From the NCBI GenBank assembly GCA_964036195.1, contig OZ038450.1:6450701-6514700 (forward strand): a stretch of 64,000 nucleotides of DNA. The letters are read 5' to 3'. Within the stretch, counting starts at the first letter, position 1; each line of letters opens with the position of its first letter. The DNA is from Sphaerolaimus hirsutus (Eukaryota; Nematoda; Chromadorea; Monhysterida; Sphaerolaimidae). Of the stretch, positions 1,830-59,462 are shown in pieces. Made by a program: the position numbers and the translations under genes. The notes under the pieces are model-generated. The model saw nothing but the letters and a program-made list of their open reading frames with translations, did no database searches and was not told the DNA's origin.

Positions 1830-2114
1830 ATGATGTCGCTGCAAATCCTCACGAACCTTCTATTTGTCGCTCTAACGTCCCTGAACTTGTGCGACTGCGC
1901 GCGGGTGGGGCGCATGGACAAGCCGCGCGCGGGCGCCGTGTCCGCCGAGGACCAGGAGCAGATGGGCGCCGCCAGGCAGATGCTCATGGCTCTGAGCGCA
2001 CAGGCGGGCGCCCACAGAATGACGGAGAACGCAGTCGGCCTGTCGCTGGCCACCGTGAGCAACGACCTGGACGCCGCCGGCACCACCGTGCTCAGGGCAA
2101 ACCAGCTCTACAGG
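1830..2114 (+). CDS. M4 peptidase copy 1, exon 1: signal peptide and propeptide start
   Basis: Starts at tandem ATG codons 1830 and 1833 and ends in phase 0 at a GTGACC donor. It encodes a leucine-rich signal peptide ending near LCDCA, then a polar propeptide segment. It is much more GC-rich than the flanking introns. The open frame extends 5' only through a TTG, not an ATG. Confidence 0.85.
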
Positions 2115-5100
2115 GTGACCCATTTCCAATTTTTATTTTATTTACCTACTATTTACCCTCAACAGCTCAAACTGTGAGGGGGCACAAGTCTGAAATTTTG
2201 GGGGTGATACCTGCAAAAAAAACCCACTACTGTAAATACAGCAGAGTTTTTTCTGTTTCACACAACTGGGTTTTTTTTCTGTTTGTTTCCGCTGATTGTG
2301 AGTCGTGGAAAAGTGACAAAAAGACTGCCAATTTGTTGTGGATAATGTCATTGATGTCATCATTCCATTCACCCACATAAAAATTTATTACGGGTGCATT
2401 GAGAGGGTAATAATTTTTTATGCAATTACTACTTTGATCCTCCTCTAGACTAGAAGGCATCATAAACAGACATATACCTCTTCCACAGCTCAGAAATGAG
2501 TGGGTGCCGGACCTGTGCGGGACAACAGAAAAGCCAATCAAAATTTTGCACTTATGGCGACCCACCCTCTAAGGGGTCGCCGCGAACCCCCGAATTCATG
2601 CGAAGTAGGGGTTGCGCCAATATCCCCCAAGTTTCAGCTTCTGACGCGCCCTGGAGATAGGATGTCACAAGTGAAATCAAAAAATGGTGCCGGATGTGAC
2701 CGGGAATGTGTTTATTTATGTGCTGTAACTCCGGCTTTAGAAGTGATTCAAAAACGGCAGGGCTTGCGCGTGCTGGAGGGCCACGTGGTGCTGCACGTGC
2801 ACAGGGAGCACAGCCTGGCCGTGCTCTCCAAGGCGGACCGGGCGCCCACGGGCGAGACCAAGCAAGTCGCCAACTGCACGCAATTCTTCGGACAGGTTCG
2901 ATCAAATAATTAAGCGTAGTTTGCAAACTGTATAGGTACTCTGCACTACCATATCACAGCTGAATAATAAACCAAAATTCAGCTCGTCAACGGCGTCGAC
3001 GAGGACATTGAACAGTCGAAATTCGAGAAATTGCAACCCAACCCACAGGTCGAATTGTTCAAATTGAAAATTTCCAGCAGCAGAGGGCCATTTAGCGAAG
3101 AAAAAGCAGAAACAGTCATTTACTTGAATGACGAAAGTGTTGCCAGAGTGGGCTATCTGGTCGCAGTGAGGTATTTCGATGGCAGAGTGGATAAGTATCC
3201 TAACAGACTCGTCGATTTGGAGACCGGATTGGTATGTTTATTGACTAAGCACCCATTGAATGATAAAACGAGTGAATAGTTGATTATGTTGAGTAATCAG
3301 GTGCCAATTCCGCAAGCAGACAAGTGTCAAAAAAGACAAGTGAAACTTGATAACAGTCACAAGTGACAGATCGAGTGCCAATTGAACTAAGAAATGACTA
3401 TTCAAATTATATTCAAGGCTTTCCACTTTCATGTTTACATGCCACTTGAGTAGTGATGGAAAAAGCGCCAGGACTTTGGCACCAAGCGCCCAAAGCGCCA
3501 TGGCATTTTTACAGACCACAGCGCCAAGCGCCAATGGCGGCAGAGAAAAATCGCGCCAAGCGCCAAAATCGCCATGGCGCTTTTGCAGTTGGCGCTAGTG
3601 CCAGGCGCCAGCGCCACGGCGGTTTTCCATTACGTACTACACTTGAGCTATTTATTACAACAGCACTACACCTTTACTTTCAAATTACTAAAAAAAAATA
3701 CCTGATCAATATTTACGTCTCCACTAGCACCACATTCTCTACGTTCTCCCAATGGAATGCAGGTGGTGCGCGCCTGGGACGGCATCCAATACATCGGCGC
3801 GCCGGCACTGTTCCACCAGCGGAGAGCGAAGCGGCTGACGGTCACCCAGACAAGGGTGCTGCCCGTGGGCAAGGGCGGCGGCGGCAATGTCAAAATGGGT
3901 TTGTAATTTTTGGAAACATGTTAGCAAATCTGGAACTTCACCGTATTGGTCAACTACACCATGTCTCAAATTCAATCTTCACGTGAGAACTCCTGAAAAT
4001 TTGTTGCTGTTGCTGTTGTTCTCCTGGAAATGTAACTTAACTTTAATGTAACCATTCTTCATGCGTGCCTAGGCTACTGGCTCATAAATATAAAAAGAAA
4101 ATGATGCCATTTTTCCTTTTAAAAAAATTCCGGCATAGGCTCCGCCTACTTGAGCACACTAACTAGTTGAAATTTAGCATAAAAATTTATTTATTTATTT
4201 ATACAAAATAATAAAGAAAATTTTTTGATGTGCACATTGACAAAAGCTTTCAAATGACCTTTTTATGACAATTTTGGTTGACGTTTACAAAAGTTATTTA
4301 GGTACCTGAGCTATCATGTTTTGTGTAAAATGTATACTGAGCATGTGACTGGGATTTTTCAATGTTTCTGATTTCAAATGGTACCATTTTTATGGAGTGG
4401 GGTTATCAACTCTATAAAGGTGCTATTTTTATACCTAGAACATGCTGTTGACTCCAAAATGATGCTATTTTTAAGGAATGTTGTTTTTGACATCAAAATG
4501 GTATCATGTTTATGGAGTCGTTTATGGAGTAATGACTCCAAAACGATACCTGTATACAGTGGCGTTATCAACTCCAAAATGGTACCATTTTATGGAGTAA
4601 AAAATTAATGAGCAAACACACGCACTGCATCAAAACACAGAATACTTTCTTTAGATGATTGAACATTAATCTGGCTCATGCCCAAAAATTGGATACCTGT
4701 TGAGTGATACATGAGGTGGATACAAATAAAAAATTTGCAACTTATTACCCCACATTTAGGATCATGGTACTACGGCCTTGGCAAGCAGGGATTTACAGTG
4801 ACCATATATCCAAATGGAACGTGTGCCATGTTGACGCCGTATGCGCGCGTGGTCGATTACTACGCCAGTTACCCAAACCAAAACACGTTCACGTTCAACT
4901 GCTCCGCAGGGAATGTACGTCATTTGCGTATTTTACAAATTTAGACAAATTTTTAGCACCGAGTTGTATCTGAACGCACGCAGAACAACGACACTGCGAA
5001 CGGGGCGAAGTCGCCGCTCAACGACGCCAGTTTCATTGTGAATCAAGCGGCGCAAATGTACATGAGCTGGTGAGTGCGCGCAAAACCATAAATCTTGAAT

Positions 5101-8100
5101 CTGAGACTACCGTATTTGCTTGAATATTTCCTCCTTGAATAATTCCCCCTCGAATAATCCCCCCTGTAAGACGAGTGAGGAAAAAATCATCCCCCCTTAA
5201 GAGATTTGATCAATTTGTTGTGCCTAGGTTTTACAAAAATGGCACGTTATTGTGTTAATGATGCACATTTCGTGTATTGATTTGATCAAAACAGTCTCAA
5301 AAATTTTGACGAAATAATAATTTCCCCCTCCCTCGAGTAGTTCCCCCCTAAAAAAAGTCTGAGGAAATAATAATCTCCCAGGGGTGTGTAACATTATCGT
5401 AAAATGTAAAACCTTTAATATTTAAGTTGACGTTCTTATGTTCGCTTTATATTTTTAGTTATCAAGATTCCATTTTAATTCACATTCCACCTTTTTAACA
5501 TCTCAATATTCACCATTCAATATCTCAAGCGATCATGTTTACAACGTGCCCTTTACGTTGCTCACATATTTAGATCTTAGTCATTGCTCACATTCCGCCA
5601 TATTTCCTTGACAAGCGGCACGCAAATACGCAGTCATGTTTATGTTAAGCGGCTGGCCCGCCCCAAGCGGGGGGCTGGGCCCGCGCGCCATTTCAAATGC
5701 TGTCTGGCTTGTCTCACATTTTTCACTATCTTGCCAGTTTAGCTCGCTTTTCATCGGAGAAGCGAGCGGGCAAGAGTTGATATTTCACAATTGGAAATGT
5801 TGGGTAAAAATCGGAGATTAGAGCTGACCGATTGGCGCCAAGTCAATCGCCAACGGTCTGGCCCTTAAAAGCCTGGACCTCGTCAACTTCACACGAATCT
5901 CTTCCTAGGATCTAAATAAGCGCCGTTGTCACTTTATTAAGTCGCTTATTTTTGGTGCTAAGTTTAACCCTTGGTGCTTTAAGTCACCTCAGTGCTTTAT
6001 TCACACCCGCGCTGTTTGAGGTGCTTTGTTCACAACCGCGCCACTTAATTGTCGCCTTTTGTCGTAATTAAGTTCCTTATTTAAATTGCCTTATTTCTTC
6101 GGTAATTAGAGCTTCTATTACGTTTCATTTAAGTAATTAATTTAGTTGTAAATTAATTCCTTCTTTTACGTATATTTTATATATTTTGTTTACATTTATT
6201 TCTTTGTACTTATTTGTCTAAATAAAACGTTCGTCAAAACCTTTCGAAAACAAACTAAATTTGCTTCACACTAACTCACGTCAATTCACTTCAACTCAAC
6301 TAATCACATTTGATAAAATAACAGAACGTCAACTAAGAGACGATGCTTCACGTCAACTTTCATATGTTCACATTTGTCCTCTTCCTCGGTTAGGAATAGG
6401 AGCTCGTTCACAAGTCAATTCAACAAGTTCTGTATTATTTTACATGGCGCAGCGAGCAGGGTGACTAATTAATTAATTGGTCACTCTAATTAAGTCGTCT
6501 CGCGCGAAATTTCATTGGAAATTGTGTTTCACAGCCTGAGTCACACGCACGAGGTTACGGTAATACGGTTTTGGACGCAAAATCGTTGGTAACGCGTGCG
6601 TATTTACTTACGATTTTACAAGTACAAGTCACAAGTAACGAAATATTTATTTTTATTATTTTATTTCGTTCACAGCTAGCTACCACTTTGCTAATAAGCA
6701 ATAAATCGATCGAACTTTGCTATGGCCGACGAACGCCTACGCGCTTTGCGAGGTGCAACCGCCGCCTCAGCTATGCCTCCGAGCAACGTAGATGAGTCCG
6801 ACACAACTCATCCGTTGACTCAGCATAGCCGGGCGTTGACTGGAGTACGCACCGGCGTGTTACGATTCACAACTAAACCGATTCCTAAAATCATCAAAGA
6901 CGAGTCACAACCCGCCGCTGTAAACTTGCAAGCGGTGGAGGAAGTATTAGAATCACTTCAGGCATACGTCTACCAAGCCGAGCTGAAATGCTCGGACCTG
7001 TCCACAGCTATGGACAGATTCACATCTACTGTTCAAGATTACATCACAAGCTTGGACAGAGACCAAGACGGTGCGGCCGAAGAAGCGAAAAGCTCCAATG
7101 CGAAATTGGAACGCGCGCTCTATTCAGGCTCGAACAACGCGACGATGCTCATGGACGAGCTGGAATCGAAAATGGCGTCTGCCCAAGCGCACATCAAATC
7201 CGTGGAAAGGTTGATACTTTCCTTGAAAGGTCAGTCCACTGTTGATTTAACTACTCAACCCCCTTCACAACCACCCTTCAATGTCAACATGGGAAGTAGT
7301 TCTCAACCTTCACAACCGGAAACTTTGTTAAAGTTACCAAAAATCGAGCTTGCTAAATATAACGGCGATCCGTTAGAAGGGGCAGCTTGGTGGGAAATTT
7401 TTCAAGCTCAAATTCACGACTGAGCTACTTTGTCAAACGGTATGAAATATACGTACCTCAAGCTCAGCCTTATCGGTCCAGCAGCAGAACTGCTGGCCGG
7501 GTTAAAAGGTGATGGTCGCGATTACATCACAGCGGTCACCATGTTAAAATCAAACTTTGGTGAAACGCATCGGGTACAAGCAGCCCTTTGGGATAAATTG
7601 TATTCACTCGAAAAGCCTTCATCAAGAGGAGACTCTCTCACAAATTTCACACAGACCCTTTTGTCAACTCTCAATCAACTAAAAGAAAGGGGTGAAAGTG
7701 TCGATTCTGGTGCAGTTTTAAGAATAATTCGTGGTTATTTACCCGATAATATTGTTCTTGCCATCACAGAAGAACACCGGAATTCGATGCGCACTGCTGC
7801 AACCGACGACACAGAACTCACAGTCGTCAGGTTTGTTGATGCATTAACTACCATTGCTCGTGCTCGTTTAGACGCGATGAAAACTGAACAGTCAAGTTCA
7901 CAATCTTCAAATGTTGTTCAGAAATCACAAAATTCATCGTCAAAAAAGCCACAAAATGGAGGTGGTTGGCAACAGCAAAAGAAAAAAGGAAATAAATCAC
8001 AAAATACCTTTTCAAAGCAAAAACCTATTCACAACACGGTTGCTTTTGCTGGTACCAATGCTAACGTTGGTAAACCACAAGGAAAAAATAAAAATTCCAC

Positions 8101-11100
8101 TCAACCTCCCAGAACACCCGCGAGCGGAGCGACTAGTCAAAAGCAGTTTTCACAACCTGCTGCTGATTATCGCAAGCCGAAATTCGAGTGCTTGTTCTGT
8201 GGCATTAAAGAGCACTACACCACTGATTGCCCTCAATACGTCACACCGAAACAGCACATCGAACGGTTGCAAGCTTTGGGCGAAGTGTGCACCCGATGCA
8301 CACGCAGAGGCCATCAACCGGCACAGTGCACTCAAAGACTGAGTTGCTACTATTGTCGCCAGATCGGTCAACATCACGGGGCGTTCTGTCCTACCCGACA
8401 GGCACCCGCAAGGCGTCAGGTAAACAATTCACAAAATAAAGCCTTTGTCACAGCAACGAGCGCTAATTTTGTCAACGCTCAGGTAATCACAACGGGCGCG
8501 GCTTCGTCACAAGCAACGCCATCGTATCCGCCTTCACACACGGAACCGATGAGCGTGTGTGTCATTCCCCCGGACGACAACGATTTTCGGTGGAGACAGC
8601 AGACGCTGTACCAGATGGACATGGACGGCCCGCTGGACATGGGCGAATGGCCAAAGCCCGCGAACGAGCTCCAGGCGAGAGCTCAGGAGGAAGCCCGCAA
8701 GTATCACAGCGAAAACGAGCTGTGGACGACGCTCCGTGCCGGCCTCATCAAGGACGGCATGGACATGGAGACAGTCAAAGCCAAAATCCGCGGCTTCCAA
8801 CAGAAACGGTACGAGGTGTACCCACACCTCAACCCGAACCAAATGTCATCGTCGGTGCCACTTCAACCCAGTCACAGGCCCACGGTGGAGGTGCTGAGCG
8901 CACAAGCGGGTTACGGTAACCCCAACACCGCTACAAGGCAGCAAGCCGAACAAGAATGTGAGTTCAATTTTGCGCCTATTGTTCATTTGCAAGTGGCCCA
9001 GGCTTCATTAATTAATAAGGACGCTGAACTAAATCGAGTCACAGACCCTTTGTTAATATTCTTTGACACCGGATGTGAATATTCATACATTAAAGCATCC
9101 GTGGCAAATGAGTATAACTTTGAAAACAAAGGAGACGTTGTTCTTCAAATGAACGTGTTTGCGACAAAAACGCCTGTCACAGTCAATACGTTTTTGATCG
9201 AGGCCGTCATGCCTATTTACAAACACGTTGACAATAAGGGCAATATGTTACAAATTCCGCTCACATTACGTGCAGTCGATAATTTGGCAACATATGCATG
9301 CCCACCTCCTTTGTCACAAGACGACAAAACAGTCATTTATATTGTGTACGGTAAACATGCACAAGAACAATTCGCGGAACCGCTTGAATTGAAAGAAATG
9401 ACTGATGAGTTTTGTCACAAACTATGTCAACCAGATGTAGTCATTGGTCAAGACTATTATTGGAAGTTCGATATTCAACCAACAGAAATCGAACTCCCAT
9501 CTGGATTGATAATAGTTGAATCAATACTTGGATTGATGCTTGGCGGAAATGCATCATCACAGTCATTTGTCACAACACCTGACATTTCGCCACATCAATT
9601 CATGGTTTCATGCTGTTCACACGCATCATCAGCTGTTGCCGTTGGCCAAGAGACATTATTTCAATTTCACAGTCTCGAGTCAATAGGCATCACAGATGAT
9701 CCATTATCACATGATGACGACATAGCTGAACAGTTAATTCTGGAATCAATAACTCTTGATCCAGAAACTGGGCGCTATAGCGTAGATTGGCCATTCAAAT
9801 CAACCATTCACGAATTGCCAACCAACAATGCAGAAGCATTTCGCCGCTTTCTGTCACTGTTGAAACGGTTTCGAAAAGATCCCGATTTATTCGCAACATA
9901 CGCTAAAGTCATCTCAGATCAACTTCACAAAGGTGTCATAGAAACCGTCTATGGTTCACAAGATGGTTTGCAAGAACATATCTTACCTCATCAACCTGTC
10001 ATCACACCTGGCAGATCGACAACATGTTGAATAGTGTATGATGGTTCTGCAGGCAAGCCAAGTCTCAACAATTGCTTATTTTGAGGCCCAGTTCTCACAC
10101 CACTGGCGCTCGGATTAATGCTTCGTTTCAGAGCCGGAAAAGTGGTGTTATTAGCAGATATTGAGAAAGCATTTTTGCAAATTGCTCTTCACCCAAAATC
10201 ACGCGCATTCACAAAATTTTATTGGCTGCGTGATGACACCATTCCGACTCACGAAGACAATATTCAAATGATGCAATTCACAAGAGTGCTATTTGGTCTC
10301 ACATGTAGTCCTTCCATTTTGTCGACTGTTATCAAATATCACCTGGAAGCGGAATTGGCTCACATGCATCCCGCTGATTCACACGAACGAGCGAAATTGG
10401 AGCTGTTGCTCAACAGCATTTACATTGATAATTTAGTTATCAGCGTAGATGATGAAAAATATGCAATACAGCTCTATCGCTTAATTAAAGCTGTTTTTGC
10501 AAGAGCAAATTTCAACATGCGCGAATGGATGACAAATTTGCGTATTGTTTCTGAGAAAATCAAACCTGATGATCTCAACCCGAAACAGTCACAATATATC
10601 AAAGTTATGGGTCTTGTTTACGATCACATCGAAGACACCATCGCGGTGCCAGCTCCCAAGAAAGATTTCACGCTCATTGTCACAGCAACACGCCGCAATC
10701 TGAACAAATTGCTGGCTTCAACATATGATCCTATTGGCATCACAGCACCCGCGTTATTTCAGTTGAAATTTTGCGTATCACAAATAATTCAAAGGTGCAA
10801 TATCACAACCTGGGATGAACTCATCGAAGACCCAGAGGCGGATGATTTACTGGACGATTTGAAACGACATCTCTCGTCCATAAGTCAAATCAAATTTCCG
10901 CGCTCATTTCACTCTTTTGGCATTGATGTCAAAGACGAAACACGTCCATTAGAGTTACATGTGTTTTGTGATGCCTCTAAAGACGGATACGCCGTTTGCG
11001 CTTATTTGCGTCAACAAGCGATTTCACCTGATGAATACGGCTATGAGGATGACCGATATTTTAGTGGTTTTCTCACAGCTCGCACAAAACTAGCCCCACT

Positions 11101-29100: not shown

Positions 29101-32100
29101 TTGACGTTCTTATGTTCGCTTTATATTTTTAGTTATCAAGATTCCATTTTAATTCACATTCCACCTTTTTAACATCTCAATATTCACCATTTAATATCTC
29201 AAGCGATCATGTTTACAACGTGCCCTTTACGTTGCTCACATATTTAGATCTTAGTCATTGCTCACATTCCGCCATATTTCCTTGACAAGCGGCGCGCAAA
29301 TACGCAGTCATGTTTATGTTAAGCGGCGGGCCCGCCCCAAGCAGGGGGCCGGGCCCGCGCGCCATTTCAAATGCTGTCTGGCTTGTCTCACATTTTTCAC
29401 TATCTTGCCAGTTTAGCTCGCTTTTCATCGGAGAAGCGAGCGGGCAAGAGTTGATATTTCACAATTGGAAATGTTGGGTAAAAATCGGAGATTAGAGCCG
29501 ACCGATTGGCGCCAAGTCAATCGCCAACGGTCTGGCCCTTAAAAGCCGATCTCACAGCTAAAATCGGCAGTGTTTGCAACCTTGTCAACTTCACACGAAT
29601 CTCTTCCTAGGATCTAAATAAGCGCCGTTGTCACTTTATTAAGTCGCTTATTTTTGGTGCTAAGTTTAACCCTTGGTGCTTTAAGTCACCTCAGTGCTTT
29701 ATTCACACCCGCGCTGTTTGAGGTGCTTTGTTCACAACCGCGCCACTTAATTGTCACCTTTTGTCGTAATTAAGTGCCTTATTTAAATTGCCTTATTTCT
29801 TCGGTAATTAGAGCTTCTATTACGTTTCATTTAAGTAATTAATTTAGTTGTAAATTAATTCCTTCTTTTATGTATATTTTATATATTTTGTTTACATTTA
29901 TTTCTTTGTACTTATTTGTCTAAATAAAACGTTCGTCAAAACCTTTCGAAAACAATCTAAATTTGCTTCACACTAACTCACGTCAATTCACTTCAACTCA
30001 ACTAATCACATTTGATAAAATAACGGAACGTCAACTAAGAGACGACGCTTCACGTCAACTTTCATACGTTCACATTTGTCCTCTTCCTCGGTTAGGAATA
30101 GGAGCTCGTTCACAAGTCAATTCAACAAGTTCCGTATTATTTTACAAGGGGGATTATTCAAGAAAATACGGTACTTACATCGACGCGTAGACATACGCGC
30201 CCTGAAATATCCTGGGCGCCTGGCGCCTACATCGTAACTCGCGTGAAAAGCAGTGCGACGCAGGTACGGCGAGGCGGCGCTGACCGAAGGCGGCAAGGGC
30301 CGCGGCGCCAAGCCCATGCAGGTGGTCGTCTTGGCGCACTACGGCGGCGGCGGCGCCGACGTGGTCTACAACGGGTCGGGTGCGGCGACCTACGGCAGCG
30401 GCATGATGAACATACCCGACGGGAACAAGTTCATCTGGTACCCGAACACGGTGGGCGACGTGCTGTCGCACGAGCTGGCCCACGGCGTCACCGAGCAGAC
30501 CAGCGTGCTAGGCACATCTAGTGCGTCAGTGATTGATGTGCATAGCACCAGTTGATGTACGAGATAGGGTTGGGAATTTGAAAAAAGTCCCAAAACAGAC
30601 TTAAAAACCTTTTTGAAAAAGCCCAAAAGTTACAGTTCGGTATCGGATCTCGATGCTTGGTTACTAAAAAAAATTTAGTTAAGGTATCAGTTCCGGTTTT
30701 CAGGTTCAGCTCCAGTTCATTTCTTTCATTTCAAAAATAATTAAACTTTTGGTTAGGTATGTTTGAAAAATGTCTTTGGGTAAAAACTTCGAAAAAACAC
30801 GTTAGAAACCAGAATTTTCACCAAAAACAGAAAATAAAAAAAACCAGAGTCACTCAAGTTGTGATTTGCAAAAAACCCTCAAAACACAGGCATTCAATCT
30901 TGAAAAACGACACAAAACACAAAGTGTTTAAAAGAAAGCTTTCCCATCGATTTCAAGGGCACAACGACTTACGTGTGCAGGTCAAACCAGCGAGGCCGAC
31001 GGGCTCAACGAAGCGTTCTCGGACATGGCTGGCAAGGCGTACGAGCGCTTCATGTACGGCAAGACCGGCGTCGACTGGGGCGTCGCTGGGCGAATGATGA
31101 AGGTGCACGATTGTTGTTTCTTGAATACAACTGCATTCGGTCTATTATCTTCCCCTCGAATATTTCCCCCTGTCAGGCGAGTGATAAAAAATTTCCCTCG
31201 AATTGTCCCCCCCCCCCCCCCGTCAAAAGAAAAGTCTGATGAAAAAAGTAATTCACCACGGCAAGTAGTCAAATAAACATGGTTAATCAATACATTGCCC
31301 TGACCAGGGTTGGCAAAATCTCAGAAAAGAATAAAAATAAAATAAAAATAAAATGGAAAATTGAAGAATAAAATAAAATAAAATAAAATGAAAATTCCAA
31401 AATAAAAATTGTATAAAAATTCGAATTTTTGTAAATTTTTTGTAAAATTGTATACAAATTCATATTTTTGTAAAAATTGTATAAAAATTCATATTTTTTG
31501 TAAAAAATTTTTCTGTTGTTTATACTTCAACCCGTTCATTCGCGGAGCTGGGGCAGTCCCAAGCCATGTAAAGTGTCAAAATGTCATATGAAATGGAATG
31601 GAAAGTGTCAATTTTCATGAAAATGTTAGGTAAAGTGTCAATTGTCATGACAAATATAAATTAAAGTGGAAACTGTAAAGCAAATTCTATCCAAATCTTA
31701 TCTTTTGTATCCAAAGCTGGTTGTTTTTGTAACCAAATCTTATGTGAACATTTGGATACAAAAACATAAGATTTGGATACCAAAATATAAGGTTTGGATA
31801 CCAAAACATAAGATTCAGATACACAATTTACACTCTGCATGACATTTGTCATGACAATTATACTTTGCTTGACATTTGAGATGCCAATTGACACTACTAC
31901 ATTTGTCATGACAATTGACACTTTGCATGATGTTTTATAAATGTGCCCAGCACACTCCAGTAATCCTTCTGCTGAAAATGCAAACCATTCTTATCGATAA
32001 TTGTAACTCAACACTTGCAACTAGCTAACAATACCTACTGCATGCAACTTTTGCAAAGTAATGAAAAAATTTGTCACACGTTTTTTTATATTTAGGTCTA

Positions 32101-35100
32101 ATTATCACATTTTTCTGACCTTGCATGCAAGATTCTGATTTTTTTTGTAAAATTTCTGTAAAATTTTTGTAAAATAGTCAATTTTATTATTTTATTATTA
32201 TTTTGGAATAAAATAAAATAAAATAAAATGAAACAAGAATAAAATTAAAATGAAATACATTTTTATACAATTTTTATACAATTTGTATACAAATGATTTT
32301 TATAAAACCAACCCTGGCCCTGACAAAAACGGAGCCGATGAATCCCTATTGTTTGTGTACAGTGAGGGTAGGATTCCATTGACACCCTTTTCCTGTGGCG
32401 CCATGGCGCCCGGCGGCCACTTATAAAATAACGCATGGTGTCCATTTTCTGGCGTTTTTCGATCACTATACAGCACACAGGGCGACTTACCGCTGCGCTA
32501 CATGGACGACCCAACCAGGAAGGCGGCACAGGACCAGTTCTACCAAGGCAAGACTTCCATTGCCAACGCCAAGGACTTCCCAGCCACGGGCTTGAATAAC
32601 CACTTGTCAAGTGGCGTGTTCAACAAGGCATTCTACTGCATGTCCACCAAATTCCAGTCGGTGCAATTCAAAATGGTTGTGGTAGATGTGCAAATGCATA
32701 ACACAGTTATTGAAATGTACATAAATTTACTCGAAAAATACATATACCTACATATTTGACATATACATACTTACACCTGTACACATACCGACAAGTACAT
32801 GTGTACAGAAAATGTATTTTTTGAAAAGTACATGTGTACAGAAAATGTATTTTTGATGCTAAAATAATAAAAAAACTTAAAGAAATCATGTCATCTTCCT
32901 ATTAAAAATACTAAATACCGTATTACCTCGAATTAACCCCCCCTCGAAATACCCCCCTAAAATTTGGCTGAGGAAATAATAACCCCCCCCCCCTCGAAAT
33001 ACCCCCCCCCTAAAATTGAGTGTAAAGAGAACGTACATAACAAATACCGCAGTTTGTGATCGGTACAATGCAGAAGGCAGAACACACGTTAAAACCGATG
33101 ATTGAGTGACGTTAGGGAAGGGTTTATGACAATATACAGTTATGTATGCCTATAAACACATACACATCTATGTAATCATTTGATTTTTGTACGTCTGTCA
33201 TAGGGAGAATTACCAAAAATTTCTGGCGAAATAATAGACCCCCCTCGAATAACCCCCCCCCCCTCGAATTATCCCCCCCCCCTCAAATGTTGCTGGCGAA
33301 ATAATAAACCCCCTGGGGTATTTCGAGGTAATACGGTAATCATTAAAAAACGACACCTGTGATGTCTTCTGGTGTAAAATCGCTCTCATGTGTAAAAAGT
33401 AGTAGCTTATACATTTTCATGACAAAGTACCCACTTTTACATATTCTATGAATAAAAGTACTCACTTTTACATTTTCTGAGAAAAAAGTACTCATTTTAC
33501 ATTTTCCTGTGAAAAAATTATTTTACTCACTCGCACTCACGAGTAATTTTAACAACTCTGATGCATAAGTGGGGATAATTTGTATACTTAGGGATTTTTA
33601 GTGAATATATAGATGTCAGATGTGTAATTGATATTCAATGCTACATAGGGAGAATGCTGATTGATGCACAGGTAAAAATATTTGTCAAATCTGCAGACTA
33701 CACTGACTGTACAGTGAAAACTCATTTAAGTTTTCCTATATGAGTTCTCTTTAAAGCGTGTGATCTGACCTCTACCAAGGTATATTTGGATTTGCAGAAC
33801 ATTGATGGATTGATGGGCAAATTCTTCCTCCTGGGGGATTGATAGCTGAAAATATTTCTGGGGGCTCGCCGGGCAAAATATGTATGGCAAAATTGACAAA
33901 ATCAAGCAAAATTTAGCAATTTTTAGTAAAAATTGGAGAAAAACCGCTCATAGTTTGCTCCTCATAGGGTGGCGGGTGTCAGGGAAAGTAGCTTCGGGAT
34001 AGATAGCTGAGCAGCTTTCTTCCATGAGACCCACGCAACGGGTCTACATGCGAAGAGGGTTTACATGCCCAGCGAGCGTTCTAATACACGACCACACACA
34101 GGAACGACGTGTGGGACGCGTTCGACATGTTCTACGTGGTGAACACGCGCTACTGGTGCCCACAGAGCAACTTCACCGCCGCTGCAGAGCTCATGCTCGC
34201 AGCCACTGAGGACATCCAGGCTGGCAAATGGGTGCAAGTCCCCTGGGGATACTCGTGAGTAGGGTTGGGAACTCAACCTGACCTGACCCGACCTGAACCC
34301 GATGCCTGTACACTTTTTGGAACTGAAACCCGATACTCGAACCCGACTCTGCTACCCGAACCTGATACCCGACATCAATACCCGAACCCGCACTCAATAC
34401 CCAAAAATACCTGCAAAAATTTCCCACAGTTCAATCTTTCAAGCAGTTTGGAAGCATTGTCAAACAACCTCCAGTTGTTTGGTGCAGTTGTAATTTAGAC
34501 ATGTCTAAATTGGTCTAAATTCTAATTGGTTTGTTTCAATTAGATCTCATTTTACTATGTACTACATGTTTTCATTCATATTTGCAAAAAAATGATTCAA
34601 TTGAAGACAATACAGATAGCTGCCTTTCCCTTGACCAAAATGACTGCCAGATATCTGGGTGCACTTGATTCCAGTTTTCTCCTCAAAGTGTGTTCAGTTG
34701 CACTGGTTCTGTGAGATAGACAGTCTGACTGGGTGCACTGCCTGTCATGATGCCATAGCAACTTAGAAAGAATGATTTGCTCAACTGCAGAATGTCCACG
34801 CAGTTGAGTCTGCAACTGTTTCATGATCAGGCATATCCTGAGTGCACCAACAGTTGCCTCTTATTAGCATCCTGTGAAGGCCACTGGAATACTGGTACCA
34901 TTAACTGAGATGTTTCAAGCACTGTTGAAATTTTCTTTGTTATTTGAAAGTTAGGTTTAGCTTTTATATATAGGTATTCTAGTTTGCCACTGGTTTTTAC
35001 CCAAACATACTGAGGTAAAAACTGTGGGCCAAAATGAAACCAAAAAATGTGTTACACCATTCTTGGAGCCTCAGCAGCCATGGCATGACACTATGCCCCA

Positions 35101-36393
35101 AAAGGTGCAGCCATCACTCACTTTGCAAAATAATAGTTCCATTAAGTTCAATTGCTACAACTTGAAATGATTACTAAGAATCATTGCAACATATTTCTTT
35201 TAGGTTCACAGTGCATTGGCTCTGGCAGTTGTGGAAGTTGAGTTTACACTGTGGGCCAATCTGAATCCACAAAAAAATGTTTTACTACTTTAGTGGCTTC
35301 AACCACCATGGTATGTAAATATTCCACAACAAATCGGCCTATGTTCACTATCACAATTCAATGGTTATGCTTTTTTTCTTGAGCATGATGATTTTTTAGG
35401 ACAAACTGTTGCATTTCCATCAGAGTTGTACAAATACTGGTATTTTCGGAAAACGTAAACGTAAACGTAAATACCTTTTCTAAATTGTGAGTATTAATAC
35501 TGAAAATGTAAAATACTTTTAAAATACATGGGTAAACGTAAAAAAAACGTCAACGTAAAAATTTCTTTGAAGTGCACAACTTGTGATCAGATGCATTGAA
35601 AAACACCCTTGTTTTTCCTATTGCAAGCATTTCTCTGCTAATACGATCACATTTTTGCTTACCTATGTTATTTATCAAACAATTTAGCGGCTAATTGGCC
35701 AAAAATATAAATTGTACTTATTGTATCAGAAAAAAGTTCAAAAATGCACTGTTTTTGTGCATTTTCCATACGATTTTTACGTTTTCTCTAGTACCCAGGT
35801 AATTGTGCCAGGAAAACGTAACAAAACGTAATGGTATTTTTTGAAAACGTAAACGTAAACGTAAATATAAATAACCAAATAACCAGGTATTTTGGGTAAA
35901 CGTAAATACGTTTTTCCAACTCTGATTTCCATTCTCCAGGGGTATTTGCACTTAGTTAGATATTAGTTTTACCTTGTGATAGATACACTACACCATGCTG
36001 TATTTTTCTTGTTCAATCCAATTCTGGATGATTTTATTACCTGATACACAACAATTCTATTACCCAATACCTGACAATTCTATTACCCAATACCTGACAA
36101 TTATATTACCTGATACCCCACATTTTGACCTGAAAACCCAATCCGATGTTTTCCTGTGTCTGGCATTAACACCAAAGTCACTTTCCAAACAATATTTAAT
36201 AAATAATTACATCGACAACCACTATTAATAATTTTGACCTCTTGCCAGATGGATCAAGACGACCGACATCGTGGAGTGCTACAAGCAGGTGGGCATCACG
36301 TGCAAGGACACCAGCAGCGGCACCAAGCTGGACACGAGCGGCGTGCAGAACTGCAAGGACACCAACAAGTGGAGCTGCACTGTCACTGGGTAG
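1830..36393 (+). CDS. Secreted M4 zinc metallopeptidase, copy 1 (spliced gene)
   Basis: Eleven exons: 1830-2114, 2761-2895, 2983-3231, 3763-3898, 4760-4914, 4984-5069, 30264-30520, 30981-31102, 32481-32656, 34102-34254, 36249-36393. Joined length is 1,899 bases, about 632 residues, ending TAG; every intron is GT..AG. Residues 1-24 are a hydrophobic signal peptide. Residues ~60-225 look like the FTP/PepSY-type propeptide. The mature enzyme carries LNDA and MYMSWYG, HELAH (His418, Glu419, His422), NEAFSD (Glu445, third zinc ligand), RYMDDPT, and NHLSSGVFNKAFY (His516, transition-state His). Secreted endopeptidase activity is expected from the family. Order and motifs match vibriolysin/pseudolysin better than thermolysin. 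A Cys-rich tail of ~50 residues follows. The ATG at 1830 is the first in frame. Residue numbers were counted by hand. Confidence 0.88.
2761..2895 (+). CDS. M4 peptidase copy 1, exon 2: propeptide
   Basis: 135 bases, phase 0 at both ends; acceptor after CGGCAG, donor GTTCGA. Encodes GLRVLEGHVVLHVH..., resembling the FTP-type propeptide strand pattern of secreted M4 precursors. Same length as exon 2 of copy 2 (40102-40236). Confidence 0.85.
2983..3231 (+). CDS. M4 peptidase copy 1, exon 3: propeptide
   Basis: 249 bases, phase 0 at both ends; acceptor after ATTCAG, donor GTATGT. Encodes the acidic segment LVNGVDEDIEQ and the strand-rich region VGYLVAVRYFDG, consistent with the PepSY-like half of the propeptide. 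Intron 2 before it is only 87 bases. Confidence 0.85.
3451..3639. mobile_element. hAT-like MITE, GCGCC palindrome family, 189 bp
   Basis: The termini resemble TAGTGATGGAAAA and its inverse complement, with the 8-bp duplication CACTTGAG at 3443-3450 and 3640-3647. The body consists of repeated GCGCCAAGCGCCA and GCGCCATGGCGC units. It sits in intron 3 of copy 1. Relatives are at 55093-55851, 58251-59195 and from 59463. Confidence 0.75.
3763..3898 (+). CDS. M4 peptidase copy 1, exon 4: propeptide-mature junction
   Basis: 136 bases ending in phase 1 at GTTTGT. Encodes VVRAWDGIQYIG..., a basic segment (RRAKRL) that could be near the processing site, and a glycine run (KGGGGNVKMG) matching the start of the mature domain in vibriolysin-type enzymes. 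The cleavage position itself is inference. Confidence 0.82.
3899..4759 (+). other. Intron 4 of copy 1 with inverted 4376-4600 repeats
   Basis: An 861-base intron with no open exon. At 4376-4600 it holds alternating repeats of ATGGTACCATTTT, TATGGAGT and AACTCCAAAATGG. These form imperfect inverted units, probably a decayed foldback element. I could not define target duplications. Confidence 0.5.
4760..4914 (+). CDS. M4 peptidase copy 1, exon 5: mature N-terminal domain
   Basis: 155 bases; acceptor after ATTTAG, donor GTACGT. Encodes WYYGLGKQGFTVTIYPNGT and the two cysteines (TCAM, FNCS) that in pseudolysin-type enzymes form a disulfide. It is 6 bases shorter than exon 5 of copy 2, a two-residue difference in the loop before NTFTFNC. 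Confidence 0.85.
4984..5069 (+). CDS. M4 peptidase copy 1, exon 6: LNDA to MYMSW
   Basis: 86 bases ending in phase 2 at GTGAGT. Encodes the conserved SPLNDA and MYMSW motifs leading into the active-site region. The donor opens a 25-kb intron that contains all the nested retrotransposons. Confidence 0.85.
5110..5384. mobile_element. TA-flanked C-tract MITE (copy b), left half
   Basis: Begins TA (5108-5109) then CCGTATTTGCTTGAATA, followed by C-rich segments. It is cut at 5384 by the LTR of element A. The right terminus resumes at 30152 (GATTATTCAAGAAAATACGG) and ends at 30171, followed by TA. The AGGGG at 5380-5384 is repeated at 30147-30151 as the duplication made by element A. Confidence 0.85.
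5385..6444 (+). repeat. 5' LTR of element A (1,060 bp)
   Basis: Starts TGTGTAACATT and ends TTTTACA. It carries an AATAAA at 6221-6226, a likely polyadenylation signal. Compared with the 3' LTR it lacks 28 bases near 5863. It contains about 12 TCACA pentamers, around ten times chance. Confidence 0.9.
6445..6464 (+). other. Primer binding site of element A
   Basis: TGGCGCAGCGAGCAGGGTGA directly follows the 5' LTR. The same 20 bases follow the 5' LTR of element B. It should pair with the 3' end of a host tRNA ending in CCA; I cannot identify which tRNA from the sequence alone. Confidence 0.8.
6722..15901 (+). pseudogene. Element A gag-pol-env frame, four in-frame stops
   Basis: One frame beginning MADERLR is interrupted by TGA at 7421, 10028, 10082 and 11729 and closes with TAA at 15899. 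Gag has a DUF1759-like core (~7340-7560) and three zinc knuckles (~8197-8390). Pol has a DTG protease site (~9060), RT (LADIEKAFLQI ~10153, YIDN ~10422), RNase H (CDAS, ELLG, TDST, NPAD) and integrase (zinc-binding ~12092; SDNAPAF ~12488). The catalytic Glu expected after GGVY is Lys (12593-12595). An env-like region (~13490-15300) ends in a membrane segment. Each stop is compatible with a C-to-T change in CGA. The element cannot be autonomous as it stands. Confidence 0.88.
15253..16137 (+). CDS. Overlapping alternative frame at the element A 3' end
   Basis: A second frame, offset by -1 from the env-like frame, stays open across the basic cytoplasmic-tail region up to the insertion of B. It continues in phase at 28694 to a TGA at 28949. 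It begins at a TTG, with no early ATG. It encodes Lys/Arg-rich then Ser/Thr-rich sequence, and after B an acidic stretch (TLRQALKQLVEE..., DADDLLPQE). It could be reached by frameshifting or splicing, or may simply be open by chance in low-complexity sequence. Confidence 0.3.
15827..15970 (+). other. Possible small intron in element A env tail
   Basis: A strong donor (CAG/GTGAGC at 15827) and a pyrimidine-rich acceptor (CTTCACAG ending 15970) bracket 144 bases. Removing them would skip the TAA at 15899 and join the env-like frame to a tail containing EMEENH and a DPPPYQ motif, a PPxY late-domain-like sequence. Element B has no matching structure, so this is inference. Confidence 0.3.
16133..16137. 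other. Target duplication of element B (left)
   Basis: AATGG here is repeated at 28689-28693, immediately outside the two LTRs of element B. This proves insertion of B into the 3' tail of element A. Confidence 0.92.
16138..17436 (+). repeat. 5' LTR of element B (1,299 bp)
   Basis: Differs from the 3' LTR at about three positions: CCG/CTG near the start, TTTTGG/TTTCGG near 17020, and AACGA/AATGA near 17170; all are C/T differences at CpG sites. AATAAA at 17250-17255 is a candidate polyadenylation signal. The short open frames within are not credible genes. Confidence 0.92.
17437..17456 (+). other. Primer binding site of element B
   Basis: TGGCGCAGCGAGCAGGGTGA immediately follows the 5' LTR and is identical over all 20 bases to the site of element A. 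Confidence 0.8.
17457..18662 (+). other. Leader of element B
   Basis: About 1.2 kb between primer site and the first ATG. It includes a direct repeat GGCTGTAGCTGACAGAG (near 17980-18015) and a repeated CACGTCAGGGGC segment near 18450 and 18511. CAGA tetramers are frequent. It presumably contains packaging and translation signals. The small open frames are probably not genes. Confidence 0.5.
18663..27347 (+). CDS. Element B gag-pol-env polyprotein
   Basis: A single frame of about 2,894 codons. The first ATG is 18663; the frame is open 8 codons further upstream but only to a GTG. Gag: coiled N-terminus, DUF1759-like core (~19188-19700), three zinc knuckles (CVFC..., CLRCLQKGHYMNQC, CFYCKSNRHH; ~19910-20111). 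Protease: FLDTGS (~20494). RT: VADIEKAFLQI (~21584) and YVDN (~21829), with Asn in place of the usual second Asp of YxDD. RNase H: VDAS, ELLA, SDST, NPAD. Integrase: H2C2 finger (~23470-23590), LDYLGP, SDNATQF, GGVYERM with the catalytic Glu present. A DUF5641-like C-terminus (~24350-24640) precedes an env-like region. No frameshift or stop, so plausibly autonomous. Confidence 0.9.
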   Translation: MVSPTGHIRKTLGPAKHRVDNRLAREYAKYDQELFAGATKEEKRTEMRRVIASVKQEGAKLDSAMTAVKTQFDAWRDVVKDIDEPDQMEQEQKMYQDSYEEYANMSDLVTQKIAAMNVYIEELQDMIQQLSGSTMYEVNTAFIQQMAAQMALTAQGAAPGASSTNATTAKSVKLQKLEVEQFTGEIVKFRSWWQMFESHIHNRTDLEDISKFSYLRSLLKGSAFGMISGLSVTAENYAPAIAMLKKRYDQPVVVRNTLMSNIMKLRQARNTCQDMRILFDAIERLLQQLESLGESVEHPMLLSQLQQKVPPEVLREIQKEQGTEEALTVEKFRKLFGQQLALSEAVQHAQQTEAPVQQSRQGFGNNPRAQQFNNRFQGNGNRFRGPENPRTSTGSMSVIQNGQSAPQAGIMNPGRPCVFCNDTQQLHFNDKCPKFKTARERRVILSKAERCLRCLQKGHYMNQCQFTRSCFYCKSNRHHTAVCPEKFGDNGNGNAGHQIPAFKANGQQSGQQSANNGRKSVPMAGRPAQSQQRKATVNCVTVEEAGPEMVETETISSTVVTEPNTKQENTSVNLSVNRNMSMLMTARTVIEASEMDTEMEPDQPPLQIQAFLDTGSQRTYMSEKVAKKLNLKSTGEHHIQVYTFGNEKPHYKVVQQVEFRMRLRNGQKVDMVADVVPTLTTEQVKVPVSEQDEKYLQKYFPDESYFADRIPKDKGTECKFKPDIIVGLNYFWDLMSRNTSTTRLPSGLYVIPSELGLLMGGGQLTSNRNQWTTDGAYPVVVNTIVHQIQREKWYEEAPLSIAPVPNVKDMDRLDTIGIMDQPDLVEDNEAIKQFNESVQRNPDGRYSVKFMYKPNLHELPDNKAMAFKRFRYLTNRLKRDPELLEKIQAIMKTQEEQGVIEKVQEDIMDGRKFHILPHQPVITPEKTTTKVREVYDASAKPPGMPSLNECMYRGPVILPQLVGMLMRFRLHGIALVADIEKAFLQISLQDSDRDVTRFLWYKDPTKPSMEDNIQIYRFARVPFGIICSPALLALTVRYHLNQAGTENATLIDENLYVDNLILSVDTEQKAIELYQESKVLFTEAQMNLREWNSNNKNFTWQLAESDVAKEIVTTVLGMKWDTESDQMWLKTPKTVQQSQLSETDQKIKLPTKRTVAKVTAGCFDPMGLVSPVLLPAKRFLQMLWHSGPSAKEWDAPLSEEQTAIWQQLETELLKVGQIKFNRNLNYQSGADAQLHIFVDASAMAYSAAAYICQKTENDSGTSSLLYSRLRLAPKKPEVTIPRLELLAMLIGSRMSKFIHKELKDVKFSQTVIWSDSTCCLKWLTTAKPLACFVKNRLDEIRKIQSETENMHIRHIAGLENPADMATRGMNMSELEGSNLWWKGPEWLMTGEWPEPKVEPVTPEVMAEIEKEELKFPKASPIYLGATQQVVSDPDASNVQADESKQSNPLGIEIQRFSSLTKLLDATVYVMRFVRQMHKKRNRNDSQNGLSEIMESICGTIKPQGIISIEEREIALKYWIKVTQQNHYKRVAEILATGHSKGSQDGKKAAADQQLIKWLNVQMHQDGILKCHGRMEHTDPQEVTVPLILLPATATVTQLIVRDQHEKLMHAGVQHILAAIRQKYWITQGRRVIYNVTRTCPTCKKLGAKPYQLPPMPDLPETRVQRARPFQYTGLDYLGPVWYKVDKDHRKMWICLFTCMVTRAVHLESVLDMTAQEFLNAVRRFIARRGKPEAVISDNATQFKLTEKVLSTSTDKAINIGKEWSEMVKSGAVQTYCSQQQIQWNMTTPMAPWQGGVYERMVGITKKHFKAAVGHRMLTLQELLTLLPEVEAVINSRPISYIYGDVKSLRVLTPKDFLTGEGQIGAPQFDADKDGEFVPRMDNAAKLQKYWETTQQTLNKFWDLWHQEYIPSLRERTQVTHKHGRLTATQEPKVNEVVLIYEENMPRGAWKMGRIEQLEPSKDGQIRSAKVRTANRNVVSRPLNQLYPLEINSKTMDIPETAVTVKVDLLDPAIVQKHVRNQSSNRDSVPNPAQRNLASDRVLRSATGKATATTSSLVIGMLCMVLMLTGMSESATLREAGKAYSEVFSRTYVLETSTVRPPSLAAHHGLPPLPSEWPPKSVREMQTYERFKDAIKDHPVEQVISSQSQKYQICTSGRHGHALTVPEEVQCHIPPRNFVKAMKVTLYAQRQIPQKEKAYRCYIRIKEIITHTSFWGAKGITGNFEKYQQVGVVACNYARIHKMFRGTPLVEMEPRVWTTNQTLNVEYSWCCHDKENVVSNFYMEEGTVASLDGKTVISDLQDFSQCRAMMGHCRDHNYGITVWDTENFKHQCAYERIGRFKSEISGQTIIVSKLQAAYSHSNKTKRPIGSECVPGDTYYTDQGGVFIQFDRREDVPVEWAMPGKIVEARESTISGTLYARLDNRNSKFQFLQHVVREMTQAQFAIVWHQLCHLRKNQLDMLTQLFRIDPTLGIRAMLGRQDVHAEWAGEAIMFWECKEVQPYIIYQTGKVGETCYKYTPMRLDKDGPLWFKSPGSRDLVEKSPEEDCSHTTPHLYRNEHGQWKSAHGMVHVTETPIEMTWKGQWQAFTFDAPHLFTNIVNRATNFMDVRGQIQRLQNLEHVQNQLIDYTADMSLDPRVIRNSIEGIGAGIGQTAAGIGKAYGHYISGVSKGYTNFMGGMLKGPFQVIINTIAMLLGITILIAGIVAAGYLWYNWRIATGKPVIPPCVYTCIWKCIVCPFKCIWLCFRAIRYTIKKSTQKETNYPQRKVRKTELRPAIKRRARSNSTQSVRFARRAETEDRMAKSLSAYVQPDESSADEGQVRARNRDSVHMPDIRKFTARERAGSDTGNYLLHHQARSALASPATGPATSRTTTFTTEATVETPLITLAPTTTSM
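24826..27347 (+). other. Env-like region of element B polyprotein
   Basis: Starts with a hydrophobic signal-like segment (VIGMLCMVLMLTG, ~24835). A Cys-containing ectodomain of about 600 residues follows. Then come a Gly/Ala-rich stretch (GIGAGIGQ, ~26590), a membrane segment (~26736-26800) and a short tail with several CxxxC-like cysteines before a long basic C-terminus. Element A has the same layout and shares local motifs (VASLDGK, LGIRA/LGLRA). I cannot assign it to a known envelope family from sequence alone. It is in frame with pol, so release would need proteolysis or a spliced message. Confidence 0.6.
27390..28688 (+). repeat. 3' LTR of element B (1,299 bp)
   Basis: Nearly identical to 16138-17436. 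It is preceded by CCCGGAG rather than an obvious long polypurine tract. AATAAA at 28502-28507. The LTR ends CATCACA, followed by the AATGG duplication and then the interrupted tail of element A. Confidence 0.92.
28694..29058 (+). other. 3' remnant of element A internal region
   Basis: Joins 16137 across element B. The sequence is GC-rich until about 28951, then AT-rich up to the 3' LTR. The frame continuing the -1 frame ends at TGA 28949; the env frame continues to a TGA near 28971. GGGAG precedes the LTR. No clear polypurine tract. Confidence 0.7.
29059..30146 (+). repeat. 3' LTR of element A (1,088 bp)
   Basis: Matches 5385-6444 with scattered substitutions, many at CpG sites, and 28 extra bases near 29545 (CGATCTCACAGC...). 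AATAAA at 29933-29938. The AGGGG target duplication follows at 30147-30151. Confidence 0.9.
30152..30171. mobile_element. TA-flanked C-tract MITE (copy b), right terminus
   Basis: GATTATTCAAGAAAATACGG is the inverse complement of the left terminus at 5110, followed by TA at 30172-30173. It closes the MITE that hosts element A. Confidence 0.8.
30264..30520 (+). CDS. M4 peptidase copy 1, exon 7: zinc-binding HELAH
   Basis: 257 bases; phase 2 in, phase 1 out; donor GTGCGT. Encodes WYGEAAL, a Gly-rich substrate-edge segment, YGSGMMNIPDG, and SHELAHGVTEQTS, the M4 HExxH site (two zinc-binding His and the catalytic Glu). The intron before it (5070-30263) is 25.2 kb. Confidence 0.88.
30521..30980 (+). 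other. Intron 7 of copy 1
   Basis: 460 bases, AT-rich. It contains a TAGGGTTGGGAA terminus-like motif near 30562 that also occurs right after the exon 10 donor at 34260, suggesting another small repeat family. No exon or RNA gene seen. Confidence 0.5.
30981..31102 (+). CDS. M4 peptidase copy 1, exon 8: third zinc ligand
   Basis: 122 bases; acceptor after GTGCAG, donor GTGCAC. Encodes EADGLNEAFSDMAGKAYE, where the Glu of NEAFSD is the third zinc ligand in M4 enzymes. Ends MMK in phase 0. Confidence 0.88.
31305..32316. mobile_element. hAT-like MITE, CAGGGTTGG family (copy 1)
   Basis: Termini CAGGGTTGGCAAAAT and TATAAAACCAACCCTG, flanked by the 8-bp duplication GCCCTGAC (31297-31304, 32317-32324). 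The interior is rich in AAAATAAAAT and in GATACAAAAACATAAGATTTGG-type units. A sister copy is at 37914-38892. No transposase. It lies in intron 8 of copy 1. A C-tract MITE fragment lies just upstream at 31130-31250. Confidence 0.85.
32481..32656 (+). CDS. M4 peptidase copy 1, exon 9: catalytic histidine
   Basis: 176 bases ending in phase 2 at GTCGGT. Encodes LRYMDDPT, as in vibriolysin/pseudolysin, and NHLSSGVFNKAFY, whose His aligns with the transition-state-stabilising His (His223 of pseudolysin, His231 of thermolysin). Nine bases longer than exon 9 of copy 2. Confidence 0.88.
32702..33560. mobile_element. hAT-like MITE, CAGAGTTG family, with nested MITE
   Basis: Left terminus CACAGTTATTG, right terminus CAACTCTG, with perfect 8-bp duplication ATGCATAA (32694-32701, 33561-33568). 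A C-tract MITE is nested at 32918-33336. A 31-bp direct duplication containing GTACATGTGTACAGAAAATG lies at 32795-32860. Confidence 0.75.
32918..33336. mobile_element. TA-flanked C-tract MITE (copy d)
   Basis: Termini CCGTATTACCTCGAATTAAC and GTATTTCGAGGTAATACGG, flanked by TA (32916-32917, 33337-33338). The interior includes a conserved core (AACGTACATAACAAATACCG...) also present in copies at 1176-1290, 47990-48180 and 49560-49620. Confidence 0.85.
33569..34101 (+). other. Rest of intron 9, copy 1
   Basis: AT-rich intronic sequence with no exon, RNA gene or repeat that I can define, apart from the acceptor CACACAG at 34101. Confidence 0.45.
34102..34254 (+). CDS. M4 peptidase copy 1, exon 10: C-terminal domain
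   Basis: 153 bases; donor GTGAGT. Encodes NDVWDAFDMFYVVNTRYWCP and the AAELMLAATEDI helix, corresponding to the alpha-helical C-terminal subdomain of M4 enzymes. The cysteine after YW is absent from thermolysin and may pair within the Cys-rich tail. Confidence 0.85.
34255..35412 (+). other. Intron 10 of copy 1, first part
   Basis: Directly after the donor comes TAGGGTTGGGAACTC and a run of CCTGACCC/CCCGAACC units to about 34430, a repeat of unknown family. The rest is unremarkable AT-rich sequence with no gene. Confidence 0.45.
35421..35924. mobile_element. hAT-like MITE, CAGAGTTG family (504 bp)
   Basis: Termini CAGAGTTGTACAAATAC and TTCCAACTCTG with the perfect 8-bp duplication ATTTCCAT (35413-35420, 35925-35932). 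Repeated AAACGTAAACGTAAACG blocks near both ends. This is the one copy of its family without a nested C-tract MITE. Confidence 0.85.
35933..36248 (+). repeat. End of intron 10 with short tandem repeat
   Basis: At about 36040-36120 a 24-bp unit (TTCTATTACCCAATACCTGACAA-like) repeats about three times. The remainder is AT-rich up to the acceptor GCCAG at 36248. Confidence 0.5.
36249..36393 (+). CDS. M4 peptidase copy 1, exon 11: Cys-rich tail and stop
   Basis: Encodes WIKTTDIVECYKQVGITCKD and a short tail with further cysteines (QNCKD, WSCTVTG), ending TAG at 36391. AFQAVGV-like ends occur in vibriolysin; the Cys-rich extension does not. Codon usage is GC-rich like the other exons. Confidence 0.85.
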
Positions 36394-39640: not shown

Positions 39641-39925
39641 ATGATGTCGCTGCAAGTCGTCACGAACCTTCTATTTGTCGCTCTAACGTCCCTGAACTTG
39701 TGCGACTGCGCGCGGGTGGGGCGCATGGACAAGCCGCGCGCGGGCGCCGTGTCCGCCGAGGACCAGGAGCAGATGGGCGCCGCCAGGCAGATGCTCGTGG
39801 CTCTGAGCGCACAGCCGCCCGCTCACAGAATGCCAGAGAACGCAGTCGGCCTGTCGCTGGCCACCGTGAGCAACGACGTGGACAGCGCCGGCACCACCGT
39901 GCTCAGGGCCAACCAGCTCTACAGG
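39641..39925 (+). CDS. M4 peptidase copy 2, exon 1
   Basis: Same 285-base length as exon 1 of copy 1, starting MMSLQVVTNLLFVALT. Differences are few (for example PPAHRMPENA in place of AGAHRMTENA). Donor GTGACC. Confidence 0.87.
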
Positions 39926-59457: not shown

Positions 59458-59462
59458 GTGAG

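Follow-up and report, generated by a model that had tools for sequence, protein, structure and literature searches.

M4 peptidases are usually regarded as bacterial, and their standard examples are thermolysin and the elastases. This locus raises the question of how a gene for a peptidase of this kind came to lie, split by introns, on a large animal contig. The window, that is, the whole stretch of 64,000 nucleotides that was analysed (G000:C1:6450701-6514700), belongs to an assembly of 348 Mb in 762 contigs. We consider it likely that it holds a tandem pair of apparently functional nuclear genes (group A) from a small animal family of M4 peptidases, and that this family descends from one ancient, probably bacterial, ancestor on the vibriolysin/pseudolysin side of M4. 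An intron-bearing, multi-gene and constrained animal M4 family would be an example, open to dating, of a bacterial-type protease that has settled in animals; it would also test intron gain, with one old shared intron and group-specific introns added later.

Two M4 Genes in Tandem

Copy 1 lies on the forward strand and runs from an ATG at 1830 to a stop codon ending at 36393, exactly the span given in the earlier note. It has 11 exons and 10 introns and encodes 632 amino acids; all ten introns are GT-AG, and the joined exons form a single frame without an internal stop. Exon 1 (1830..2114) encodes a signal peptide, as judged by eye, and the start of the propeptide, which continues through exon 2 (2761..2895, FTP-like) and exon 3 (2983..3231). 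Exon 4 (3763..3898) contains the end of the propeptide, a lengthened stretch, and the GGGGN with which the mature enzyme starts. The N-terminal part of the mature enzyme, with two conserved cysteines, is encoded by exon 5 (4760..4914), and exon 6 (4984..5069) encodes NGAKSPLNDA...MYMSW. Exon 7 (30264..30520) carries the HELAHGVTEQ zinc site and has lost the NAFW motif; exon 8 (30981..31102) carries NEAFSDMAG with the third zinc ligand, and exon 9 (32481..32656) carries LRYMDDPT and NNHLSSGVFNKAFY, which includes the catalytic His. Exon 10 (34102..34254) encodes WDAFDMFYVVNTRYW and the first part of a C-terminal insert; exon 11 (36249..36393) encodes the end of this insert, the last helix, a Cys...W-x-C tail, and the stop. 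The motif MYxxWYG, listed in the earlier note, is present; however, it is not contiguous in one exon, since it is completed only across intron 6 (5070..30263), with MYMSW before the intron and YG after it. This intron is 25,194 bases long, enlarged by two BEL/Pao-type elements, one apparently nested in the other.

The stretch in exon 4 (3763-3898) is about 22 amino acids longer than in most relatives, and P0006 likewise has extra residues there. Because it lies close to an intron of paralogue C (see below), it may be an exonised intron.

A comparison of the window with itself revealed that the exons of copy 1 recur downstream. The locus had been described as a single gene; in fact it contains two in tandem, the second of which ends just beyond the window. 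Exons 1 to 10 of copy 2, also on the forward strand, are located at 39641-59457 (39641..39925, 40102..40236, 40446..40694, 40931..41066, 44523..44683, 44745..44830, 50411..50667, 56105..56226, 57912..58078, and 59305..59457), with HELAHGVTEQ in exon 7 and NEAFSDMAG in exon 8. Exon 11 lies just past the window end, at C1:6517934-6518078 (L007:3234-3378). Copy 2 encodes 631 amino acids, and inner stops are absent across the joined frame.

The intron columns and phases of the two copies are identical for all ten introns. The ten spliceosomal introns of consistent phase that the earlier note proposed for copy 1 are thus repeated column for column in copy 2. The proteins are identical at 560 of 629 aligned residues, and across the 629 aligned codons dN is 0.064 and dS 0.228 (dN/dS 0.28, Fisher p 2e-15), a pattern of purifying constraint. 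Together, the identical intron columns and phases and the dN/dS value make chance untenable as the source of the gene model. With tblastn at an E-value of 1e-3, the 100 kb flanking each side contained no additional group A exons except exon 11 of copy 2; an Rfam scan gave 0 matches.

Paralogues and Genome Setting

A search with PF01447 also matched two other large contigs, and the matches led to paralogue B on C15 (26 Mb) and paralogue C on C3 (32 Mb). Both are diverged multi-exon M4 genes with GT-AG introns and open frames; the models cover the catalytic part. The same search missed the window's own genes on C1 (34 Mb) because introns split them, and the assembly holds at least four M4 genes on three large contigs. 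One intron, at alignment column 376 and in phase 0, five codons ahead of a conserved NG, occurs in A, B, and C alike; in copy 1 this is intron 5, which precedes exon 6. B and C have three additional introns in common. Within the part that can be compared with both B and C, the other five introns of group A are private to A. The presence of distant cousins in the genome suggests that the M4 family has long been resident in this animal lineage.

The same assembly includes a mitochondrial contig, C762 (L091, L101), of 14,754 bases and 17% GC, which is compact and of animal type. Its gene order is rearranged, with nad2 and nad1 on the minus strand ahead of cox1, and there is scant space for tRNAs between most genes; ARAGORN, run with the bacterial code, found 0 tRNAs on this contig. 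AGA codons occur at conserved Ser positions and AAA codons at conserved Lys positions; we take AGA as Ser and AAA as Lys to fit the invertebrate mitochondrial code and to argue against a vertebrate, tunicate, cnidarian, or flatworm source.

If the genes were bacterial contamination, a misassembly, or dead pseudogenes, the heavy retroelement insertion would be the one observation to fit. Spliceosomal introns, a chromosome-scale contig, and two constrained open copies all speak against this explanation, which we regard as highly improbable. The earlier note had excluded contamination, and the introns, the 34-Mb contig, and the compact animal-type mitochondrial genome bear it out: as the source of the window genes, contamination is as good as excluded.

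Family Assignment

Two Pfam domains matched the copy 1 protein well above their cut-offs: Peptidase_M4_C (5.3e-19, 69.1 bits versus 24.4) and Peptidase_M4 (1.5e-10, 42.1 bits versus 22.4). The FTP propeptide domain fell just under its cut-off of 21 (5.1e-4, 20.3 bits). In a search of the PDB with the single sequence, the M4 family peptidase 7ecc (1.6e-33), the LasB pro-elastase (5.6e-33), vibriolysin MCP-02 (5.2e-30), and ProA together spanned 1.6e-33 to 4.6e-29, whereas bacillolysin, protealysin, and aureolysin reached only 3.6e-10 to 5.9e-8. A five-row profile of animal and JGI sequences (the latter are described below) scored 292-377 bits on the LasB, MCP-02, and ProA enzymes, with the LasB pro-enzyme best at 377, versus 97-156 bits on thermolysin, bacillolysin, protealysin, and aureolysin. 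For the MCP-02 propeptide, a separate chain, the score was 23.8 bits. The higher scores for the LasB, MCP-02, and ProA enzymes place the window gene on the vibriolysin/pseudolysin side of M4. The identification as an M4 peptidase made in the earlier note thus holds, with both M4 domains over their cut-offs and the best PDB matches of vibriolysin/pseudolysin type.

Vibriolysin (MCP-02, PDB 3nqx) and pseudolysin (LasB, PDB 1ezm and 8cr3) have the same pre-pro layout, zinc site, and catalytic His as the animal genes. MCP-02 and LasB, which give the best sequence scores, also have the N-terminal Cys pair in common with the animal genes, and both window copies retain this pair. Unlike these enzymes, the animal genes have introns, a C-terminal insert of 12-14 amino acids, and a C-terminal Cys tail; in addition, the window copies lack Tyr157 and NAFW and have additional residues in exons 4 and 7. 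Thermolysin, bacillolysin, and aureolysin, also M4 enzymes, share the fold and the zinc ligands but are clearly more distant by score. Only one NCBIfam model, that of Legionella ProA (NF045902), was matched by the window protein at E <=0.001; its 179 bits lie far under the cut-off of 900, so the protein is not a member of ProA.

The Active Site

In M4 peptidases, zinc is bound by both His residues of HELAH and by the Glu of NEAFSD. The Glu within HELAH activates water, and the transition state is stabilised by the His of NNHLSSG. The residues H142, E143, H146, E166, D170, R203, and H231, in what we take to be thermolysin numbering, are kept in all 17 rows of our residue map, including A1, A2, B, and C, as are HExxH and the downstream Glu ligand in NEAFSD. 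Tyr157 is replaced by Thr in both A1 and A2, with three extra residues at the site; the Asn112-Ala113 position reads D-V in A1 and N-T in A2, and the NAFW stretch is lost in both. Tyr157 and Asn112-Ala113 are both intact in B, in C, and in the five JGI rows. The claim that all M4 catalytic motifs are present therefore stands for the zinc ligands and catalytic residues, but not for Tyr157 and NAFW. These are auxiliary positions in M4 and do not define membership of the family.

The loss of Tyr157 and NAFW probably altered specificity in the window copies, and the group A peptidases are probably active with an altered cleft. The group A branch is also long in the 38-row tree described below (1.68 changes per column); considered with the lost positions, this suggests that activity may differ or be low. 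The family would offer a natural experiment in M4 specificity, as group A has changed residues that B, C, the JGI relatives, and the bacteria in the residue map all keep.

Each group A gene, presumably expressed, would yield a zinc endopeptidase preceded by a signal peptide (as judged by eye) and an N-terminal propeptide; by analogy with vibriolysin and pseudolysin, the propeptide would fold the enzyme and inhibit it until cleaved off. The secreted enzyme would then cleave proteins outside cells, with digestion or attack on foreign protein as its most likely role.

The C-Terminal Insert and Tail

An insert of 12-14 amino acids ahead of the last helix and a Cys tail are found in A, B, and C. 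We surveyed 376 proteins for the insert by pairwise alignment, of which 365 could be scored and 11 were not. The insert is 12-14 amino acids long in all nine animal and JGI rows and at most seven in the other 356 scored rows.

The JGI proteins P0091, P0152, P0187, P0188, and P0189 have the insert and Cys tail as in the animal genes and fall on the same side in the 38-row tree. Unlike the window copies, they retain Tyr157 and the NAF core, and unlike the intron-split animal genes, they are single open frames on contigs of 1.3-1.8 kb, which suggests that they are probably transcripts. P0152 and P0091 came from a region search and were chosen partly for their insert and tail. Searching with a profile of one group A row plus B, C, P0091, and P0152 retrieved three more of the kind, P0187-P0189; these are nearer to an independent check of the insert, though the same profile retrieved them.

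The fold prediction covers the JGI relative P0152. The model, made from 34 rows, has a pLDDT of 86.0 and a pTM of 0.69; its tail forms a beta hairpin (residues 524-537) in well-scored blocks, and the C-terminal tail would carry a putative disulfide. In a Foldseek search, the first match of the model was vibriolysin MCP-02 (TM 0.94 by target, 46% identity).

Similarity to Bacterial Enzymes and Distribution

The window protein is 27-36% identical to all 86 relatives from the protein search, and identity in the catalytic core is about 40% at best. Over the 151 residues around the zinc site (395-545), identity rises to 38-50% among the best 120 of 165 matches. This higher identity near the zinc site explains the likeness of the motifs to those of gammaproteobacterial enzymes.

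Relatives that carry an organism name (among the 86 of 86, the best 120 of 165, and the best 120 of 2,019 matches) are bacterial, chiefly Pseudomonadota; the exception, P0024, was deposited under an isopod name and is flagged UNVERIFIED_CONTAM. The 80 loci retained from at least 566 relatives are also bacterial, in a collection that holds prokaryotes only. No named eukaryotic homologue occurs among the matches listed; the eukaryote coverage of the database is uncertain, and absence from other animals is not implied. Comparison rows that lack an organism label, including many of the P rows, were taken as bacterial. Of two scans of viral contigs, one gave two weak and distant M4 matches, and the other, with the animal-type profile, gave none.

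Judged by title and the opening of the abstract, none among the papers listed in literature searches deals with an animal M4 peptidase, though supplementary lists of horizontally transferred genes may include this gene. The available portion of PMC13342648 does not mention thermolysin, vibriolysin, peptidase, protease, or elastase. In the available part of PMC3681718, vibriolysin appears solely in a cited bacterial paper, and the passage on a ctenophore in the accessible text of PMC6005172 concerns an M13 peptidase, not M4.

Phylogenies

Catalytic cores were taken from 270 sequences (266 of them non-animal; P0080 and P0127 lacked the motif), and 26 were retained by identity and length, including L089 and L090. 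For the 38-row tree, ten P rows (four of the JGI kind) were added to the 30-row set and L089 and L090 were removed; for the outgroup tree, L089, L090, L014, L036, L050, and P0095 were added to the 38-row set. The comparison rows come from searches that started from these proteins themselves, with no deliberate sampling of Bacillota or Actinomycetota.

In the unrooted 38-row tree, the nine animal and JGI rows are split from the 29 others with support of 98/95. B and C group together (99/94), and so do the JGI rows, all five of them (100/98); this tree does not fix the branching order among the nine. In the 30-row tree, whose only JGI-type row is P0152, two label changes are needed for the four animal rows, which fall together on one side in 23% of the 200 bootstrap trees. 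With the distant L089/L090 outgroup, the 33 other rows form one clade (99/90), and the nine form a weakly supported basal grade (88/66, 88/62, and 80/42); they were held as one side in 0% of 200 bootstrap trees. An AU test with the nine constrained together just failed to reject the constraint (p-AU 0.066). This grade is suspect because L089 is long and of odd composition, but it tells against a single clade of the nine and we weigh it accordingly.

In no tree was a comparison row of the vibriolysin/pseudolysin kind placed among the animal genes with support, and the animal genes branch outside the sampled bacterial rows (29 of 29 in the 38-row tree, 33 of 33 in the outgroup tree). This placement bears on whether the genes arrived by a recent transfer from a gammaproteobacterial donor of vibriolysin or pseudolysin. 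The likeness of motifs, the 38-50% identity across the 151 zinc-site residues among the best 120 of 165, and the bacterial, chiefly Pseudomonadota, names of the listed matches (apart from the flagged P0024) would fit such a transfer. However, identity to the 86 relatives is just 27-36%, none of the 29 or 33 other rows falls among the nine, and the family has paralogues on three large contigs, ten introns, and a shared intron and insert. We judge a recent transfer improbable, and the close or recent gammaproteobacterial kinship suggested in the earlier note is not borne out.

Group A and the B+C pair could also have been acquired independently from different bacteria. They have a single intron in common, do not form a clade in the 30-row or the outgroup tree, and their order is open in the 38-row tree. 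Yet that one intron agrees in position and phase across A, B, and C. The insert and Cys tail are also alike, with the insert absent from the other 356 scored rows; we judge independent acquisitions improbable.

Origin of the Family

That the family numbers at least four genes, spread over three large contigs, and that its members have an intron and an insert in common, points to a single old origin. As the ultimate source, transfer from bacteria is the likelier, because M4 is chiefly a bacterial family. The alternative is descent from an early eukaryotic or metazoan M4 gene that was lost in most model lineages, with no transfer into this lineage. The position of the animal rows outside the sampled bacteria would suit such descent, as would the JGI relatives on short contigs, whose insert and tail make the type seem wider than this species. 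Nevertheless, M4 is a largely bacterial family and the whole group still lies on its vibriolysin/pseudolysin side, and no named eukaryotic homologue is among the matches listed, where eukaryote coverage is uncertain and most rows lack an organism name. We regard vertical descent as a serious but rather unlikely alternative, and a single ancient transfer, ranked ahead of it, as the best reading.

Under a single ancient transfer, the ancestral gene would have gained introns, the 12-14 amino acid C-terminal insert, and the Cys-bearing C-terminal tail, and would then have duplicated into A, B, and C; group A would have duplicated in tandem later. More tentatively, and with less confidence than we would need to favor it, the genes with insert and Cys tail may represent an undescribed animal, possibly wider eukaryotic, M4 clade that arose from one ancient bacterial gene and spread in planktonic and other animals, with a tandem pair here whose cleft was rebuilt (Tyr157 and NAFW lost) while catalysis was kept.

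Repeats and Mobile Elements

The two BEL/Pao-type elements in intron 6, apparently nested, occupy 5381-29878 and have env-like (Monjiviricetes_fusion) domains. Their presence fits an animal host (available text of PMC3118150). The outer repeat pairs are 5381-5680/29055-29354 (98% identical) and 5877-6176/29579-29878 (99%). The inner pair, 16137-16436/27389-27688, is 100% identical, so the inner element looks very recent; it contains an uninterrupted stop-to-stop frame of 2905 amino acids (18630-27347) with matches to Pao protease, reverse transcriptase, integrase, and env-like domains.

A probable non-LTR element with an Exo_endo_phos endonuclease domain (8.5e-7) is located at 62258-63997, and its frame reaches the window end. 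The region 51194-54104 is dense in tandem repeats with unit lengths near 116, 30, and 27 bases; a frame there had a Dad1 Pfam match under the cut-off, which is probably spurious. Dispersed repeats of the GCGCCAAGCGCC type occur around both copies, at 3447-3633, 55159-55232, and 58248-59667.
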